Shown here piece after piece: positions 5,473 through 17,181 of a stretch of 36,380 nucleotides of DNA. Made by a program: the position numbers and the translations under genes. Within the stretch, counting starts at the first letter, position 1, and every line of letters starts with the position of its first letter. Origin of the DNA: Methylomonas sp. (GTDB lineage: Bacteria > Pseudomonadota > Gammaproteobacteria > Methylococcales > Methylomonadaceae); the NCBI GenBank assembly GCA_026989395.1, contig JALSJK010000181.1, positions 1 through 36,380 on the forward strand, given 5' to 3'. Below the pieces are notes generated by a model. The model did no database searches and was not told the DNA's origin. It saw only the letters and a program-made list of their open reading frames with translations.

Positions 5473-5994
5473 CTATTTTATTACTCCACACGCCACTCTT
5501 GGCCCGCCGCCACCCAGTTTTTTCGGCAAATCAGAATAATTATCCCCTCCAGCATGAATTATCAAAGAACGCCCCTTAATATCAGATACCTTGACGCGAG
5601 GCGCAAGAATTGGGGCAGTCGCTTTACCATCAGCCTCAACATATAGAAAAGCCAAATCACCAAGATGGCCTTCACCATATGGACCAGCATGTAAGCCTGT
5701 ATCCGCTGGGTCAAAATGACCTCCGGCAGCCAACCCAGGCACCACTTTTCCATTTTTTTCCTTGGACCCACACTTTGGATTTTGATGAATATGAAAGCCA
5801 TGCCCCCCAGAAGAAAGCCCAACCAGATCTGGTGAAAAAACGGCTCCATACTTTGTATCGGCAACATTAATAATACCGATTTTTTCCCCCACACCTCTCG
5901 AAGTAACTTTGTTAATTGTTATTTTGACACTCTCAGCAACAGCAGAACTGGCGACCAATACAGTAAGGCATGCAAGTAATTTAAAACGCTTCAT
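5473..5994 (-). CDS. sodC: Periplasmic Cu/Zn superoxide dismutase
   Basis: SodC dismutates superoxide in the periplasm. The 173-residue precursor has a Sec signal peptide ending near SAVA (residue 20). The mature protein shows GFHIH (66-70; His68 and His70), GGHFDP (His93), GEGHLGDL (His110, Asp113) and SLIIHAGGDN (His147). These supply the copper and zinc ligands, with His102 probably the other zinc ligand. Cys75 and Cys169 can form the conserved disulfide. A strong ribosome binding site AAGGGGT (6001-6007) precedes the ATG by 6 bases. The gene is convergent with the glycosyltransferase and stands alone, with its own predicted promoter. It adds to the periplasmic copper proteins in this window. 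Confidence 0.95.
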   Translation of the reverse strand: MKRFKLLACLTVLVASSAVAESVKITINKVTSRGVGEKIGIINVADTKYGAVFSPDLVGLSSGGHGFHIHQNPKCGSKEKNGKVVPGLAAGGHFDPADTGLHAGPYGEGHLGDLAFLYVEADGKATAPILAPRVKVSDIKGRSLIIHAGGDNYSDLPKKLGGGGPRVACGVIK

Positions 5995-7194: not shown

Positions 7195-7620
7195 TTAAAC
7201 AAAAAATGATGCCACCAAGTAATAACGAAGAGCCTTTCCAATAATAATTGCTAATATAGAATAAAATAAAGAAAGTTTTAACCAACCTCCAGCAAAACAC
7301 AAGCCATCTCCAACAACTGGCAGCCATGAAAACAACATAGCCCAACTTCCCCATTTTTTTACAAATCCTAAAGATTTTTGTTTTTTTTCTGAAAGCATCT
7401 TTTCCAAAGGATATTTCTTTGCTGCAAACACCCCCAAAATCCAAGTTGTAATCGCCCCCAAAGTATTTCCTATGGTGGCTACAAAAACCAAAAACTCCAT
7501 TTTTTGCTTATTTTCTGATGCTAAATAGGCGAGAAGTGCTTCAGAGCCTCCAGGCGCAATTGTAGATGAAATAAATGAACTAACAAAAAGCCCCCAAATA
7601 TCCATCGAAATATTTTGCAT
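7195..7620 (-). CDS. yqaA: YqaA family membrane protein (DedA/SNARE-associated superfamily)
   Basis: This small inner-membrane protein is related to E. coli YqaA in the DedA/VTT superfamily; members of that superfamily are implicated in lipid transport and envelope homeostasis, while YqaA itself is poorly defined. The 141 residues show the family pattern: SSFISSTIAPGGSEALL near the N-terminus, a central GNTLGA motif (51-56), WLPVVGDGLCFAGGW (99-113), and the C-terminal GKALRYYLVA (128-137). The open frame continues up to a TTG at 7653 inside a terminator loop. The ATG at 7620 was chosen because GGAG precedes it and the length matches YqaA (about 142). It begins only 14 bases after the copper-operon terminator, so expression may depend on read-through or a promoter embedded upstream of the hairpin. 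Confidence 0.82.
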   Translation of the reverse strand: MQNISMDIWGLFVSSFISSTIAPGGSEALLAYLASENKQKMEFLVFVATIGNTLGAITTWILGVFAAKKYPLEKMLSEKKQKSLGFVKKWGSWAMLFSWLPVVGDGLCFAGGWLKLSLFYSILAIIIGKALRYYLVASFFV

Positions 7621-7633
7621 TTTCTCCGCGCAT

Positions 7634-7668
7634 GAAAAAGCCTCTATGACCAAAAAATCATAGAGGCT
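7634..7668 (-). terminator. Intrinsic terminator of the copper operon
   Basis: A perfect 11-bp stem (7639-7649 with 7658-7668, AGCCTCTATGA and its complement) with an 8-base loop is followed on the minus strand by a T-run (7635-7638). It lies 78 bases beyond the stop of the last copper-operon gene. Because it sits just before the YqaA ribosome binding site, it could also act as an attenuator for that gene. Confidence 0.88.
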
Positions 7669-7745: not shown

Positions 7746-8621
7746 CTATGAAGCTTTTCCTGATGAGGCTTTTTTGATCAAAGTATTTATTAATTGAATA
7801 ATATAATTAACAGTTTCCTTGATCAACTCAAAAACATAGGTTACCACCTCAGCGGCAGTCATCCCTTTAAATTTTTTCGCTAATAAAGGAGCAAGTAGCA
7901 AACCAATTGCTAAACCGACCACCATAACACCAGATATAAATGAATCATCTGAAGCGGTTGGCTGCTGCTTTTTGGCAGTTGCAGCTTTGGCGGATGCGGA
8001 ATCAGTGGACTGATTATAGGATAACTTTTCCGGGATAGCTCCAGAATAATCATCCTGCACTACAAACTCGGTTACTCCTGGAATACTTGGCAAATCACCA
8101 CTTCCTTTTCCGACTTTTAACTGCCCTTTCATCCCTTTCTCCATATGCTGGGCCAGATCGCAATGAACCAAATAGGTTTTGTCACCCGGAGGTAAAATTA
8201 AAGTTCCTGACACTTTTCCAGGCCCAGTCACTTCTAAATGAAACATGCCTTTCGGGTACAAATATCCAGGCAAACCATGCATCATCCATTGATGTCTGAC
8301 ATGATCTTCATTAATAAAGTGAACAGTCAACTTGGTACATGGCTCAAACTGATATTCTTGAACATCAAATGCAAACATTCTTCCTGGAAATTTTTTGGCG
8401 TACTTATGCCCAGCATGCACGGTGATTTCTTTAGTTGTGGCAATTTTGTCACAACCGCCCGGCAAAGTATCCAGGTTCTGACCCATCACCATACCGCCGC
8501 CCATATCCATTAAATGGCCGCCACCATGATCCATTAACATATTATCGTGATCTTCAATTTCCTGAGCAAATACTACACTCGAGAACAAAAAAGACATTGC
8601 TGTAAAAAATAACACTCTCAT
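7746..8621 (-). CDS. Membrane-anchored cupredoxin with His/Met-rich N-terminus
   Basis: This is a predicted periplasmic copper protein, probably an electron or copper carrier for the oxidase encoded just upstream. The 291 residues run: signal peptide (1-19); a short Asp/His/Met/Gly-rich stretch (about 24-47) likely to bind metal; and a cupredoxin domain (about 60-170). A complete type 1 copper site is visible: His110, then Cys154, His159 and Met164 with the classical spacing of five and ten residues. After a low-complexity linker there is one transmembrane helix (about 228-248) and an amphipathic C-terminal tail. Cys57 and Cys95 may form a disulfide. A strong ribosome binding site (GGGGAGG) lies in the end of the oxidase gene, whose stop is one base away, so the two are translationally linked. 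Confidence 0.8.
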   Translation of the reverse strand: MRVLFFTAMSFLFSSVVFAQEIEDHDNMLMDHGGGHLMDMGGGMVMGQNLDTLPGGCDKIATTKEITVHAGHKYAKKFPGRMFAFDVQEYQFEPCTKLTVHFINEDHVRHQWMMHGLPGYLYPKGMFHLEVTGPGKVSGTLILPPGDKTYLVHCDLAQHMEKGMKGQLKVGKGSGDLPSIPGVTEFVVQDDYSGAIPEKLSYNQSTDSASAKAATAKKQQPTASDDSFISGVMVVGLAIGLLLAPLLAKKFKGMTAAEVVTYVFELIKETVNYIIQLINTLIKKASSGKAS

Positions 8622-8622
8622 C

Positions 8623-10374
8623 TTAAGCCTCCCCTTTTTTAGAGGAAATCAGGGCTATAATTTTCTCCCGATTGATAACCACGATATAAGCAAAAATACC
8701 CAACATCAATCCCACCAAAAAATTCCTGAATGAGTTATTGCCACCTCCATTACCAGCCTTAGCCTGATTCCTTTTGGCTTCAGCCAGCGTCATCGGCCCT
8801 TTTACCATCATTGGCACTGCAGGTGGTGGGTTTTTAAAGCCAGTTGCATCAACTTCGCCTAAACTATTCCATTCATCAATGTCTTGCCAAACCGGATAGT
8901 TTCTTGCAGAAAAGGCCTTGGTAAATAATGGCATTATGTTTTCACCAATTGCTTTCGGTAAACCTTCTTCATTTAAGTATTTTTTATAAACAACTGCACT
9001 GACATTACCGCCTGGATTCATGCCATCTGTAGTAATCCCTTTTTCCCTATGGTCGTGAAAAATCCAGATACCTTCACCATAACTATGCAACCCATCATCA
9101 ACAGTACTGAGCATAATGTCATTTCGCTGCGCTGGCGCCATGTCATAAACATCACGCATAATTTGAGAATCAGGATTATGCTCCACGCCATCATAGTGCG
9201 TTATTGTGCCTTTGTGGCCATGCGTATGAATTGCTAATATCTCACCACTACTATTAAACATCCTGGTTTTAATTTTTTTGTCCGGCTCAGCGACAATAAT
9301 TGATTCCCTCAATGTATACGGGAATGAACGTCCATTTAGAACATGATAATCCTCTGTAGAATCCGTCATGTCATAGCGACGATTCATATCCCTGGCAATT
9401 AACCGAGGATCATTATATTTTTGAACAATGTTATGAAGCTCCTTGTCCATCGCATGATAATGCAAGTCATATTCATTATCGTATTCCTCCAGGATGGCTT
9501 TTGCCGGATGTCGCACCTGGCCACCACCGACATTAAAAGTCTGCACCCAATTATTGGGACGATTCTCCTCGACGATGAACATGCCCACCAGCCCCATTGC
9601 TAAATGTACATGAGTTTGAACATGGCAGTGATAAACAAATGTTCCAGGCTGTCTGGGACGAATCTCATAAGTTTTACTTTGTCCCGGCAAAACAAACTTG
9701 TCGCTAGTCTGCGGCACACCATCATTACCTTCACCAGAACTATCAATCCAAGGATGATCAACACCATGCAAATGGATAGTATGCGGAAAATAATGAGTAT
9801 TTTCTAAAACAATCCAAACGACATCGCCCTGTTCAACCCTTATCGGAGGCGAAGGCATTCTCAACAGAGGATTAGCTTCAAGCCCCACAAAACTCCGAGT
9901 AGCCATACCTCTGGATTTCGGTGCAAACACCCACATTCCAGGTTCTATTCCAGGAGCAATATCAAAGGTAGGTACCACACCATCGAAATCAGGCGAGTGG
10001 CCATTTAATTCAGTAACTTCCAGCTTGATGATGATATGATCAGGGTCTCCGTCACCATCCATGTCATTGGTTTTAGTGATTGCATCCGCTGCAAAATAGG
10101 TATCCATCAAAGTATCCATGGAAACATTATTGGTGCCCTTTACCTCAATGGCAACTTGCGCTGGATTATCGGGGTGACACCTAAGTGACTCCTGAATTTC
10201 CACACCTTCGATTTTTGTCGCTTCACGCCACTCTGCATTACCTTTTGGGCAAACAGCTTCTGGTTTGTCAGGATCTATTTTTACCGTTTTTGGCAAATTC
10301 ACAGCTGCTGATGCCGTAAATGGCATCAGCGCTACAAATCCACTTAACAGTACTAACAGCGGATATTTCTGCAT
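8623..10374 (-). CDS. Two-domain multicopper oxidase, membrane anchored
   Basis: This is a predicted periplasmic multicopper oxidase of 583 residues. It has a signal peptide (cleavage near residue 23), a roughly 150-residue N-terminal region with Cys42/Cys66 and an Asp-rich loop (104-112), two cupredoxin domains, and a C-terminal transmembrane helix (about 551-567). Domain 1 has HTIHLHG (198-204) and YHCHVQTH (248-255), giving type 1 ligands Cys250, His255 and Met260 plus trinuclear ligands. Domain 2 has HTHGH (383-387) and FHDH (439-442): the Cys is Asp441 and the following His is Gly446, so its type 1 site is lost. That pattern matches two-domain oxidases with the type 1 site in domain 1 only (type C as I recall the scheme). 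AGGT precedes the ATG. Substrate unknown. Confidence 0.83.
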   Translation of the reverse strand: MQKYPLLVLLSGFVALMPFTASAAVNLPKTVKIDPDKPEAVCPKGNAEWREATKIEGVEIQESLRCHPDNPAQVAIEVKGTNNVSMDTLMDTYFAADAITKTNDMDGDGDPDHIIIKLEVTELNGHSPDFDGVVPTFDIAPGIEPGMWVFAPKSRGMATRSFVGLEANPLLRMPSPPIRVEQGDVVWIVLENTHYFPHTIHLHGVDHPWIDSSGEGNDGVPQTSDKFVLPGQSKTYEIRPRQPGTFVYHCHVQTHVHLAMGLVGMFIVEENRPNNWVQTFNVGGGQVRHPAKAILEEYDNEYDLHYHAMDKELHNIVQKYNDPRLIARDMNRRYDMTDSTEDYHVLNGRSFPYTLRESIIVAEPDKKIKTRMFNSSGEILAIHTHGHKGTITHYDGVEHNPDSQIMRDVYDMAPAQRNDIMLSTVDDGLHSYGEGIWIFHDHREKGITTDGMNPGGNVSAVVYKKYLNEEGLPKAIGENIMPLFTKAFSARNYPVWQDIDEWNSLGEVDATGFKNPPPAVPMMVKGPMTLAEAKRNQAKAGNGGGNNSFRNFLVGLMLGIFAYIVVINREKIIALISSKKGEA

Positions 10375-10419
10375 TTTATTTACCTACTTAAAAATATTCT
10401 TGCAGGGTTTAAACAATAA

Positions 10420-11010
10420 TTAGCTTTTGATTTTGCCAATAATCTCATCAACTTTTTCTTTAAAGCCTGCGTGTGAAAGATAGAGAACGTACAAGCCTGC
10501 TAAAACAAAAAATGCATAGAGCAACATTTCATTTGTAGAAGTCGGTTTGCCTTTTCCTGCAACAAAGCCCATATGCGCATCTAGTCTTTCGCCATTTTCT
10601 GGAACTAAAGTGATATGGATTAAATACTGGCCAGGCTCAGGCACACCATTTGGCAAAGATAAGACCACAGTACCAGATTTATGTCTCTTTTTTTCCATAA
10701 AAAACACCCGCTTGCCTTCTGGTTCTTTGGTTACTTCAAACTCAACTTCCGCATCACGATAGCGCATGTCCTGATAATCAAAAACTAGCTGAGTCAAGGT
10801 ATCAGTATCGGGTAAAACCCCGCAAAACTCTTCAGCCGGGTAAGCTTTCGGCTGATATGCTGTGTAATGGATCCAATGATCCGGCTCAAGCTCAAACTTA
10901 CATTGATCAGTATCTGTTCCTTTAGCTCCACCATGCGCTAAAACTGAAGCTGAAAAAATTAGCGCGAATAAGCCAATAACGCCATGAGTTAATATTTGTT
11001 TTAAGTTCAT
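10420..11010 (-). CDS. Exported membrane-anchored protein with predicted N-terminal His
   Basis: This is the first gene of the copper operon; I recognise no named family. The 196-residue precursor has a signal peptide whose best cleavage site (VLA, residue 25) would leave His26 followed by Gly-Gly as the mature N-terminus. A free N-terminal His is the hallmark of copper sites in CopC, PmoB and LPMO proteins. The periplasmic part is beta-rich in appearance, with Cys37 and Cys63 and further His at 45, 48, 110, 132 and 146. One transmembrane helix (about 161-179) and a basic tail follow. The ribosome binding site AGGAAGGTG is strong, 5 bases from the ATG. The operon suggests a role in delivering copper to, or interacting with, the oxidase; copper binding is inferred. 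Confidence 0.72.
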   Translation of the reverse strand: MNLKQILTHGVIGLFALIFSASVLAHGGAKGTDTDQCKFELEPDHWIHYTAYQPKAYPAEEFCGVLPDTDTLTQLVFDYQDMRYRDAEVEFEVTKEPEGKRVFFMEKKRHKSGTVVLSLPNGVPEPGQYLIHITLVPENGERLDAHMGFVAGKGKPTSTNEMLLYAFFVLAGLYVLYLSHAGFKEKVDEIIGKIKS

Positions 11011-15587: not shown

Positions 15588-16574
15588 TCAACCAATTTGG
15601 GCCAAAGCTTTTTGAAAAGCGCCTAACAAACCAACCTCAGGGTTCAAGCACACCTTCACAGACATTTTCTGCAAAATCTGATGGTAGCGTCCTTTAGCTA
15701 AAAAACCCTCAAGAAAACATCCCTGCTGTAATAAAGGCAGAATCTTGGGTGCAATCCCCCCTGCCAAATAAACCCCACCGTAAGGTAAACATTTTAAAGC
15801 CAAATTCCCGGCTTCATTGCCATAAATCCGGCAAAACAGCTCCAAAGCCTGCTGACATAACCGATCGCGCGCTGAAACGCCCGCTTCACCAATCACTGAA
15901 GGAGCATCATCCGTTGCTTTTAATACTCGCTCAATCTCAGCAGATGGCTCAACGCCTGATTGCTTTAAAAACTGGTAAATATTATGCAATCCCTCACCAG
16001 ATACCAAACGCTCGTAACTGACATGATCAGGATATCTTTTCCACAAAAACTTCAATAACTCAATTTCTTGCTCATTGGATGGTGCAAAATCGGTATGCCC
16101 GCCTTCAGTTGCAATAGGATGGTGCGTTTCTCCATCCCAACACATAATCGCTTCGCCTAATCCCGTTCCTGCAGCAAGAACGGCAATATGCCCGGACATT
16201 TGCTGTGAATCTGGATTTAACTCGAAAAACGCATCATCGGACAGACTCAGCACACCCCAGGCCGCCGCCTCCAAATCATTAATCAAACAGGTATTAGGAG
16301 TCTCTAAGATTTTACTTAATTCTCTTTGTGTAATCGTCCAGCCAAGATTGGTTAAATAACAATCGCCATTTACAATCGGCCCCGCAACGCCAAGACATGC
16401 AGAAGCAATAGCTGGATATGCTGTTTGCCCAAGAAACTCAGCTAATACCTGTTCGAAAGATTGATACTCGGCACAAACATAGGTCTGTTTCTGTACGCAT
16501 TTTAATTCTCCAGGCTCCTGAAGATAAAGCGCCAGTACCGCTTTGGTTCCGCCAACATCGCCGACAAGGATCAT
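15588..16574 (-). CDS. glk: Glucokinase
   Basis: Glk phosphorylates glucose to glucose-6-phosphate with ATP in the cytoplasm. The 328-residue protein is of the E. coli Glk type (ROK/hexokinase fold). It shows the phosphate loop GDVGGTKAVLAL (5-16), CLGVAGPIVNG (60-70), the catalytic Asp100 in LINDLEAAAWG, LAAGTGLGEA, EGGHTDFAP and GGVYLAGGIAPK. GAGGG lies 6-7 bases before the ATG, inside the end of the DUF411 gene. The DUF411 stop and this start share one base (TAATG), suggesting translational coupling. With pgi nearby it supplies glucose-6-phosphate, possibly from glycogen or sucrose turnover. Confidence 0.94.
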   Translation of the reverse strand: MILVGDVGGTKAVLALYLQEPGELKCVQKQTYVCAEYQSFEQVLAEFLGQTAYPAIASACLGVAGPIVNGDCYLTNLGWTITQRELSKILETPNTCLINDLEAAAWGVLSLSDDAFFELNPDSQQMSGHIAVLAAGTGLGEAIMCWDGETHHPIATEGGHTDFAPSNEQEIELLKFLWKRYPDHVSYERLVSGEGLHNIYQFLKQSGVEPSAEIERVLKATDDAPSVIGEAGVSARDRLCQQALELFCRIYGNEAGNLALKCLPYGGVYLAGGIAPKILPLLQQGCFLEGFLAKGRYHQILQKMSVKVCLNPEVGLLGAFQKALAQIG

Positions 16575-17056
16575 TAATAACCCTCATAGTGATTAAAAAC
16601 AGAGAATTTGCCATTTTCATCAAAAGCAACTACGTCGAAAGGATCTTTTCTGCCACCCATTTCCATTCCTGGCGTACCTGCTGGCATAGCGGGTACAGAT
16701 ATCCCAACAATTTTTGGGCGTTTGGCCAATAAAGTAATTATATCTGCCGCTGGTACATGACCTTCAATAACATAACCATTAATAATCGCTGTATGACAGG
16801 ATTGCATTGCTGCCGGGACGCCGTATTTTTGTTTTATCGTATTAACATCATCATTAACAATATCTTTGACGGTAAATTGGTGCTTTTTTAAATGCTCAAT
16901 CCATTTATGACAACAACCGCATGTTGGACTTCGATAAACCACAATTGTCGTTGGCACGGCTAACTGCTTTTCGGATTTATCCCAAACACTTTCAGCATTG
17001 GCTTGCGCAGAAAACACCAAGATTAAAAATAGCGATAAAAAATTTTTCAAATTCAT
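16574..17056 (-). CDS. DUF411 periplasmic metal-binding protein
   Basis: This 160-residue exported protein belongs to DUF411, a family often found beside copper-resistance genes. A signal peptide ends near residue 21 (QANA). The thioredoxin-like domain carries CGCCH (46-50), Cys87-His88, His100 and a Met-rich C-terminal loop (Met124, Met131, Met133), all plausible soft-metal ligands. The open frame runs up to 17116, but the ATG at 17056 is chosen because AAAGGTG sits 6 bases upstream and the signal peptide begins there. It is coupled to glk by a one-base overlap, an unexpected partner. A copper chaperone or resistance role is family-based inference. Confidence 0.88.
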   Translation of the reverse strand: MNLKNFLSLFLILVFSAQANAESVWDKSEKQLAVPTTIVVYRSPTCGCCHKWIEHLKKHQFTVKDIVNDDVNTIKQKYGVPAAMQSCHTAIINGYVIEGHVPAADIITLLAKRPKIVGISVPAMPAGTPGMEMGGRKDPFDVVAFDENGKFSVFNHYEGY

Positions 17057-17181
17057 ATAAACACCTTTATTTGTTATCAATATTGTCATGTTAAGCGCAA
17101 TTGCAATGCCAAACAAGCGTTACACACCACATTGCTAATTAAGAGGACTACAGAAGCAATAAATAGTTTCCCCTGTAATGG

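Follow-up and report, generated by a model that had tools for sequence, protein, structure and literature searches.

A three-gene operon of a Methylomonas sp. appears to encode a membrane-tethered periplasmic copper-handling module serving a copper membrane monooxygenase (CuMMO), namely pMMO, a reading to which we give a probability of about 0.55. Judging from sequence comparisons, the trio, made of a PmoD/AmoD-family protein, a multicopper oxidase (MCO) and a type 1 cupredoxin (CUP), is conserved together, mostly in CuMMO holders of the samples searched, and lies directly 3′ of pmoCAB in two families. The oxidase would act as a cuprous oxidase, driving Cu(I) to Cu(II) with O2, and the cupredoxin and PmoD would bind copper and hand it on at the membrane. 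The outcome would be a pMMO loaded with copper, or keeping it, in a periplasm without free Cu(I). Features of the window, the whole stretch of 36,380 nucleotides that was analysed, are collected in Table 1.

Table 1. Genes and candidate expression signals of the operon and its downstream neighbours.
Feature	Position	Strand	Remarks
gene 1, PmoD/AmoD-family	10420..11010	(-)	196 aa ORF
gene 2, two-domain (type C) MCO	8623..10374	(-)	583 aa ORF
gene 3 (CUP), type 1 cupredoxin	7746..8621	(-)	291 aa ORF
promoter-like site TAGACA-17-TATAAT	11203-11175	(-)	11/12 consensus positions, ~165 bases 5′ of gene 1
intrinsic-terminator-like hairpin, 13 pairs + T-run	7668-7639	(-)	3′ of gene 3
dw4, small membrane protein, weak VTT (DedA-like) match	7195..7653	(-)	E 5.1e-5, under cut-off
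dw5, polytopic membrane protein, 258 aa	6290..7066	(-)	no family model over cut-off

The earlier note had described three genes under one promoter and one terminator, each product with a C-terminal membrane helix. The open reading frames, all on the minus strand, and a Kyte-Doolittle scan agree with this layout: genes 1 and 2 are 45 bases apart, genes 2 and 3 a single base, and each protein shows a single hydrophobic stretch towards its N-terminus and a single membrane segment towards its C-terminus (the latter at residues 162-180, 549-567 and 229-247 for genes 1, 2 and 3, respectively). The promoter-like site and the hairpin are the strongest of their kind in the region, where the totals of such signals were close to those of shuffles (17 promoter-like vs 14.3, 7 terminator-like vs 4.5). 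No CopA/CopB/CueO partner, efflux ATPase or metal regulator was seen adjoining the operon when the ORF lists were read by eye and six proteins scanned, as the earlier note had also found for partners and regulator, and its picture of a small membrane-tethered periplasmic copper operon is supported. Scans with Rfam models and for tRNA genes gave no match. In the window's own genome, pmoCAB is carried on a different contig.

Spread of the trio on plasmids was considered and rejected, plasmid records giving only matches of less than 60% identity. These were three Methylomonas records for gene 1, 446 records for gene 2, none reaching 80% query coverage, and none for gene 3. In the stretch examined of two of the gene 1 records (H21 and H22), MCO/cupredoxin was absent from the annotation.

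The product of gene 1 belongs to the PmoD/AmoD family, an assignment that the earlier note had missed; its wording "unassigned function" is right only in part, falling for this gene. Against PmoD of Methylocystis sp. Rockwell (PDB 6cpd; Fisher et al. 2018, PMC6189053), phmmer gave an E value of 2.1e-4 and the profile 4.5e-15, and the folds matched with Z 15.9 and an rmsd of 2.2 over 114 residues (Foldseek E 2.3e-9), rows of the VIA-align structure comparison below CrdA (Z 9 and less) being taken as background. No Pfam or NCBIfam model passed its cut-off on this protein. Gene 1 has in common with 6cpd the fold, here a beta-sandwich domain, the two conserved Cys, an N-terminal signal-type segment, a C-terminal TM helix and, in the phylum sample described below, a family confined to AmoA-positive genomes. 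The mature protein probably starts at His26. Its motif is Cx8WxHx14C (C37, W46, H48, C63), with C37 kept in 63 of 64 homologues of the subtype (one gap) and C63 in all 64; H146 is invariant. Compared to 6cpd, the window's gene 1 has an extra residue, giving Cx8WxHxnC, and pmoCAB does not adjoin it. The CuA-forming set Cx7MxHxnC is not found, Trp46 standing at the Met position, which is occupied by Trp, Leu, Thr, Val, Ile or Phe in 64/64 homologues of the subtype. This lowers only the claim of a CuA site, not PmoD membership.

Gene 2 encodes a type C two-domain MCO, with two cupredoxin domains, a T1 site in domain 1 only (H198, C250, H257, M260) and eight trinuclear-site His (H201, H203, H249, H251, H383, H385, H440, H442), these roles being assigned via alignment and general MCO knowledge. 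Eleven of the 12 ligand positions are unchanged in 117/117 distinct homologues, and the axial Met is present in 114. The closest solved structures were 3g5w, which we take to be Nitrosomonas europaea BCO, and the 2zwn/4e9v laccase (E 7.4e-36 and 7.9e-35). Both share the placement of T1 and the eight His with gene 2, which differs from them by ~140 additional N-terminal residues (signal included) containing two conserved Cys, by an invariant acidic, Ca-site-like run in this extension (DxDxDxDxD, 104-112), and by its C-terminal TM anchor.

In gene 3, the T1 ligands H110, C154, H159 and M164 are conserved in 88, 88, 88 and 87 of 88 homologues, respectively. The copper sites that the earlier note had predicted for the oxidase and the cupredoxin are, at this level of conservation, upheld. 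The protein starts with a conserved Met/His arm (M30, H32, M38, M44, M46) and ends with the TM helix followed by a terminal helix (256-287). Pfam scores were weak only; Foldseek searches with the structure model (pLDDT 85.6) matched laccases, CueO and auracyanins, with a best E of 6.9e-7. Auracyanin-type cupredoxins have the same fold and the same H, C-x4-H-x4-M type 1 ligands but lack the N-terminal arm, the TM helix and the long terminal helix; these extra parts, arm and helices, keep the query-normalised TM low (~0.3).

Also missed in the earlier note was a VTT gene (dw4 in the window), which lies 3′ of gene 3 in 26 of 41 loci carrying the triple, on the same strand every time; downstream sequence of more than 3 kb was available for 30 of these 41. 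A homologue of dw4 passed the VTT cut-off. In the window a terminator-like hairpin separates dw4 from gene 3, and the true start of dw4 is probably an internal ATG 3′ of this hairpin. The next gene, dw5, is a neighbour at 20/41 triple loci and is probably dispensable for the core unit; no Pfam or NCBIfam model passed its cut-off on dw5 and two homologues.

Conservation was surveyed in 61 genomes, the window's own and 60 relatives, counting MCO matches down to ~1e-45 and PmoD matches down to 1e-16, with only a minority of the weaker PmoD ones; the PmoD copy numbers in this tally are "at least" values. The earlier note had named usual separation of the three genes as a refuting outcome; the triple was kept together in 29/61 genomes, and in 25/61 the oxidase lay apart from a conserved PmoD-cupredoxin pair, which counts against a pMMO module. 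In favour of it, MCO or PmoD lies directly upstream of CUP in 98 of 102 CUP loci. The oxidase had neither partner adjoining in 29/80 named loci, a further point against; 5 of these 29 end soon after the oxidase.

The link to CuMMO is most direct in loci of two families (L168 and L169), where the order pmoC-A-B-PmoD-MCO-cupredoxin-VTT is found on a single strand. At three others (L171, L172, L173), the trio or MCO-CUP is upstream of pmoC. MCO was found within 3 kb of AMO in 6/61 genomes vs 0.3 expected, the genomes not being phylogenetically independent. In a phylum sample of 398 genomes, the PmoD profile matched three, identical to the three over the AmoA cut-off (one being the window's own). 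A genome without AMO match, G053, also had no PmoD or CUP match and only a weak MCO match (1.4e-6). One over the AmoA cut-off, G247, had eight PmoD matches but none for CUP, and its MCO match was weak (2.1e-5), meaning that genes 2 and 3 are not needed by every CuMMO. The distribution is tied to copper monooxygenase holders one way only, some holders being without genes 2 and 3. Among the 61 relatives, PmoD occurs without an AMO match in 8 genomes, mostly drafts. Besides G443 (see below), 8 further genomes have trio members without an AMO match, three of which (G005, G047, G051) are rated 99-100% complete, and this weakens the co-occurrence with CuMMO. These holders may lack a repeated operon through assembly. 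In ammonia-oxidiser-type loci, PmoD and amo were both absent from the 18-19 kb examined (13/13 loci), another point against the pMMO module.

A more specific form of the pMMO reading, which we consider rather doubtful, is that the three proteins, PmoD and the anchored oxidase and cupredoxin, assemble into a single complex that serves as the machine for copper insertion (metallation) into the particulate methane/hydrocarbon monooxygenase of these gammaproteobacteria. Within it, the oxidase would use O2 to set the oxidation state of copper, the Met/His arm of the cupredoxin would carry copper and PmoD would dock on pMMO, the MCO-cupredoxin half having been acquired later by one ammonia-oxidiser lineage.

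It seems unlikely that the operon serves general copper detoxification, i.e. a CueO/Cop-like removal of toxic periplasmic Cu(I), the CuMMO link merely reflecting heavy copper import. Gene 2 scored far under the cut-offs for the copper-resistance MCO CopA/PcoA (39.0 vs 478.95 bits, TIGR01480) and for CueO (33.3 vs 525 bits, NF008205), both of which were rejected; the earlier note had asked whether the oxidase goes with a characterised copper-resistance enzyme, and no score put it there. The restriction of PmoD to AmoA-positive genomes of the phylum sample, the clustering with pmoCAB on one strand and the lack, by eye, of an adjoining efflux ATPase, CopB or metal regulator argue in the same direction. 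Nevertheless, the Met/His arm would suit detoxification, an RND efflux pump is placed divergently upstream in most ammonia-oxidiser-type loci, and G443, a genome without AMO match, has a fused MCO-cupredoxin-CusF. This fusion also speaks for the copper handling of the pMMO module, but its occurrence in such a genome counts against that module, since the basic activity does not need CuMMO. The C-terminal domain of this fusion is the Cu(I) chaperone domain CusF (PF11604; E 4.2e-13, 49.4 bits vs cut-off 27), of which the window's operon has no match. Copper-dependent expression fits detoxification as well as the pMMO module: in PMC6688271, M. capsulatus pmoD MCA2130 adjoins an MCO gene and is reported to be down-regulated without copper. 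The main text of PMC4831470, cited there for this regulation, does not contain "2130".

Less probable still is a periplasmic chain for electron transfer, with the cupredoxin giving electrons to, or taking them from, the oxidase (or pMMO) at the membrane, although gene 2 and gene 3 each have a complete T1 site and the fusion suggests that MCO and cupredoxin work together. Auracyanins, among the closest folds to gene 3, are electron carriers. No conserved electron-transfer neighbour was found, a CxxCH ORF being present within 5 kb in only 3/41 triple loci; the commonest neighbours were genes for glucose-6-phosphate isomerase, VTT, dw5 and a lytic-transglycosylase-like protein (named by eye, VTT excepted). 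The CuA Met is missing throughout the subtype of gene 1, and the Met/His arm and the CusF fusion are features of copper transfer. The "redox chain" of the earlier note is not established, and these two features point to copper handling.

Oxidation or reduction of NO or nitrite by MCO-cupredoxin is highly improbable: in the ammonia-oxidiser-type genome G162 the pair immediately precedes, in the same orientation, genes for cytochrome c, COX1-family, NorQ-type and VWA proteins that fit norC-B-Q-D, but of 33 CUP-bearing genomes in its family only G162 has this adjacency (two more within 6 kb), a NorB match at 1e-20 is absent in 10/33 (Fisher p 0.41), and the link was rejected after this survey, as was gene 2 as the copper nitrite reductase NirK (45.8 vs 296.3 bits, TIGR02376; trinuclear His present).

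Adjacency of PmoD and MCO is already published, PmoD subclasses near MCO genes being noted in PMC6189053. For Cycloclasticus, PMC12510462 gives "phmo (A, B, C, D)", which puts PmoD with hydrocarbon monooxygenase in that genus already in print. For the PmoD-MCO-cupredoxin(-VTT) operon, no description was found in the literature searched; a prior sighting is possible, as the supplement of PMC6189053 sorts 20 PmoD neighbourhood groups. In the same paper, disruption of pmoD in M. trichosporium OB3b caused a growth defect in replete copper and none in copper starvation, which favours the pMMO module; this PmoD is of the in-operon type, not the gene 1 subtype, which counts against it. Its abstract takes the lower activity of isolated pMMO, compared to whole cells, as a hint of missing components. 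The trio, together with the VTT membrane protein in many relatives, offers a concrete gene-level candidate set for such components in gammaproteobacteria, and in some relatives its genes are joined to those of the monooxygenase in an operon-like way, so that copper loading of pMMO becomes directly testable through gene removal.

Gene 1 of the operon is a PmoD. No model of Pfam or NCBIfam reached it, but phmmer matched it to PmoD 6cpd (E 2.1e-4), and a profile built from 41 sequences did so with an E value of 4.5e-15. The AlphaFold model (mean pLDDT 81.8) found the same structure (Foldseek E 2.3e-9; Z 15.9 with an rmsd of 2.2 across 114 residues); after it, the best structural match was CrdA, a copper resistance protein of H. 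pylori (Z 9.7). The profile also picks up PmoD-type genes adjoining amoA in genome G162 and pmoA in genome G247. Despite this homology to 6cpd, the subtype is predicted to form no CuA site, because the Met of the CuA set is replaced. According to the excerpts of PMC6189053, the CuA site of PmoD is built by a Cx7MxHxnC set, and no other set gave CuA in vitro; among 64 homologues of gene 1, by contrast, Trp occupies the Met position in 45, Leu in 9, Thr in 5, Val in 3, and Ile and Phe in one each. Cys63 and His146 are each found in 64/64, Cys37 in 63/64 (one gap) and His48 in 55/64. The N-terminal His pointed out in the earlier note is His26, which follows a likely cleavage site and is kept in 57 of the 64; five others have Asp there and two a gap. 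PmoDs linked to pmo genes, which fall below or at the score limit of this count, have the Met one place later (Cx8M in loci L168 and L170, Cx8MH in L169), and Cx8M PmoDs are described in the same excerpts as commonly close to multicopper oxidase (MCO) genes (PMC6189053). Two f6 genomes carry two tandem PmoD genes 5′ of the MCO (L101:3204-4611, L105:47-1442), with Met or Arg instead of the motif's usual His. On Methylomonas plasmids (L194, L195) the gene directly after that of an EthD family reductase encodes a PmoD homologue, labelled 'hypothetical protein' in the annotation, and a LysR regulator lies divergent.

Gene 2 encodes a two-domain MCO of type C, its T1 ligands being confined to domain 1; among solved chains, 3g5w and laccase 2zwn come closest. 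Eleven of the 12 copper ligand positions are invariant in 117/117 distinct homologues, and the axial Met is present in 114. As CopA, CueO or NirK it scores far under all three cut-offs. The N-terminal extension holds a Cys pair, kept in 115/117 with two gaps, together with a DxDxDxDxD run that never varies and by its sequence may resemble a calcium loop. The gene 3 model (mean pLDDT 85.6) was recognised as a cupredoxin by Foldseek, with matches to laccases, CueO, auracyanin and NosZ (best E 6.9e-7). Its ligands are His110, Cys154 and His159 (88/88 homologues) and Met164 (87/88). N-terminal to them runs a Met/His arm with Met38, Met44 and Met46 (86–87/88) and the less constant His32 (83/88) and Met30 (69/88); in the G162 copy this arm is lengthened by numerous His and Asp residues.

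The three genes lie as previously described, with gaps of 45 bases and 1 base.

Position, strand and product length of the three genes
Gene	Coordinates	Strand	Length
gene 1	11010–10420	minus	196 aa
gene 2	10374–8623	minus	583 aa
gene 3	8621–7746	minus	291 aa

A simple hydropathy scan found the claimed C-terminal membrane segment once in each product, together with an N-terminal segment. For the promoter and terminator of the earlier note, the scans gave consensus matches rather than proof, as both barely exceed shuffles in site count: the best promoter-like site (11/12) lies about 165 bases 5′ of gene 1, and 3′ of gene 3 comes the best of the T-run hairpins. Elsewhere in the window are a Cu/Zn superoxide dismutase gene near the operon (5473-5994; PF00080, E 1.1e-29), seen at one related locus only (L006), and a gene (16574-17116; PF04214, E 1.3e-25) whose small exported product has a CGCCHKW motif and belongs to the copper-linked DUF411 family.

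The cluster was followed in 61 genomes, the window's own and 60 relatives, a triple being defined as PmoD followed by MCO and then cupredoxin, each gap being below 700 bases. All three proteins occur in 59 genomes. The triple is found in 29, PmoD is followed directly by the cupredoxin, the oxidase not lying between, in 25, and one or the other arrangement thus occurs in 54. The seven remaining are G053, in which all three are absent, and G006, G020, G022, G044, G045 and G050, five of them being in more than 100 contigs. The oxidase also led to named loci, of which the best 80 (of 190 relatives) were kept; in these, profiles with strict spacing gave 38 triples, and three more (L039, L046, L084) have all the genes, with ORFs overlapping through start-codon choice. 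Five of these best 80 are cut at a contig end, 5 have MCO-cupredoxin without PmoD, and in 29 the oxidase has neither partner, five of them ending soon after it. In the resulting 41 triple loci, a divergent glucose-6-phosphate isomerase gene is a neighbour in 26, the small membrane protein gene VTT in 26 (same strand every time), the polytopic membrane protein gene dw5 in 20 and a lytic-transglycosylase-like gene in 19; CxxCH ORFs within 5 kb of the triple were found in just 3.

In a quick tree of 54 oxidases, with its root on a very long branch and 13 open forks, one starred clade holds 10 of the 11 separated oxidases, so that separation from the partners looks derived. The 13 ammonia-oxidiser-type copies share a starred branch with those of the window type, pointing to a transfer of the MCO-cupredoxin pair without PmoD. 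At the 13 ammonia-oxidiser-type loci (L139, L182-L193), an RND efflux pump lies divergently 5′ of the pair in most (its adaptor family in 11 loci and its transporter family in 10; Pfam-checked in L139). In G162 (L139:5347-13024) the pair is immediately upstream, on the same strand, of norC-norB-norQ-norD-like genes (Pfam: cytochrome c, COX1, CbbQ/NorQ, VWA), a neighbourhood not conserved within its family.

The host is very probably a methanotroph, since its genome (G000; 3.27 Mb, 182 contigs) has one AmoA/PmoA gene above the Pfam cut-off, within a pmoC-A-B set on contig C139. The closest of the named records, a 'Methylomonas sp.' MAG, carries an oxidase of 92% identity. The window's triple and pmoCAB are on different contigs. 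C139 also carries a second PmoD gene (L086:9214–9840) adjoining a CopC gene (PF04234, E 9.8e-22; pair L086:9214-10239).

In several relatives the two sets are joined. L168 (G056, family f7) reads pmoC-A-B-PmoD-MCO-cupredoxin-VTT on a single strand, with gaps from pmoB onward of 129, 12, −4 and 11, and L169 (G043, family f8) has the identical order. By coordinates, AmoA, PmoD, MCO and cupredoxin follow the L168 order and strand in G048, G049 and G059. The trio, VTT and dw5 lie 5′ of pmoC-A in L172 (f3), MCO-cupredoxin-VTT-dw5 lies upstream of pmoC-A-B in L171 (f2), where the contig begins at the MCO, and a second-type MCO-cupredoxin is immediately 5′ of pmoC-A-B in L173 (f1). G042, which shares a genus code with G056, carries the triple without an adjoining AMO. 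An oxidase within 3 kb of AMO was observed in 6/61 genomes against about 0.3 expected from random placement, a comparison that overstates independence as the genomes are related. Nine of the 61 have no AMO match, including G053, which also gave none for PmoD or cupredoxin. Three of the other eight (G005, G047, G051) have completeness ratings of 99–100%, which leaves two readings: an AMO lost in assembly, or a trio that can persist in its absence.

Among 398 genomes drawn across the phylum, the window's own included, AmoA/PmoA was above the cut-off in 3 (G380 was sub-threshold, 7e-4), and PmoD profile matches fell in exactly these three, one being the window's own. The cupredoxin profile matched G000, G162 and, more distantly, G443 (79.7 bits), where a single 669-aa MCO-cupredoxin fusion ends in a C-terminal CusF domain (L148:8090-10099; PF11604, E 4.2e-13); a search of G443 for AMO gave no match. 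Within G162's family, one genus code has the cupredoxin in 33/41 genomes and the other three together in 0/40. In G247, which belongs to another class, pmoA and eight PmoD matches are accompanied by only a weak MCO match and by none to the cupredoxin profile.

The adjacency of PmoD and MCO is already in print (PMC6189053; PMC6688271, both as excerpted). The literature searched gave us no earlier account of cupredoxin and VTT as partners, of the gene order pmoCAB-PmoD-MCO-cupredoxin-VTT or of an MCO-cupredoxin-CusF fusion, and no biochemistry for the PmoD-MCO-cupredoxin set. Disruption of the in-operon pmoD of M. trichosporium is reported to harm growth with copper and not without it (PMC6189053, as excerpted). 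MCA2130 of M. capsulatus, a pmoD adjoining an MCO gene and probably the orthologue of gene 1, is reported to be lower without copper (PMC6688271, as excerpted).

The identity of the parts, their ligands, their linkage and their distribution in these samples being established, a role in copper handling for the monooxygenase is favoured by the CusF fusion and the Met/His arm, and by PmoD being confined, in the phylum sample, to AmoA-positive genomes, together with the pmoCAB clusters. Against it, G247 manages without genes 2 and 3, and the oxidase is often apart. The trio would handle copper on behalf of the monooxygenase, with the oxidase acting as a cuprous oxidase and PmoD and the cupredoxin as anchored copper carriers.
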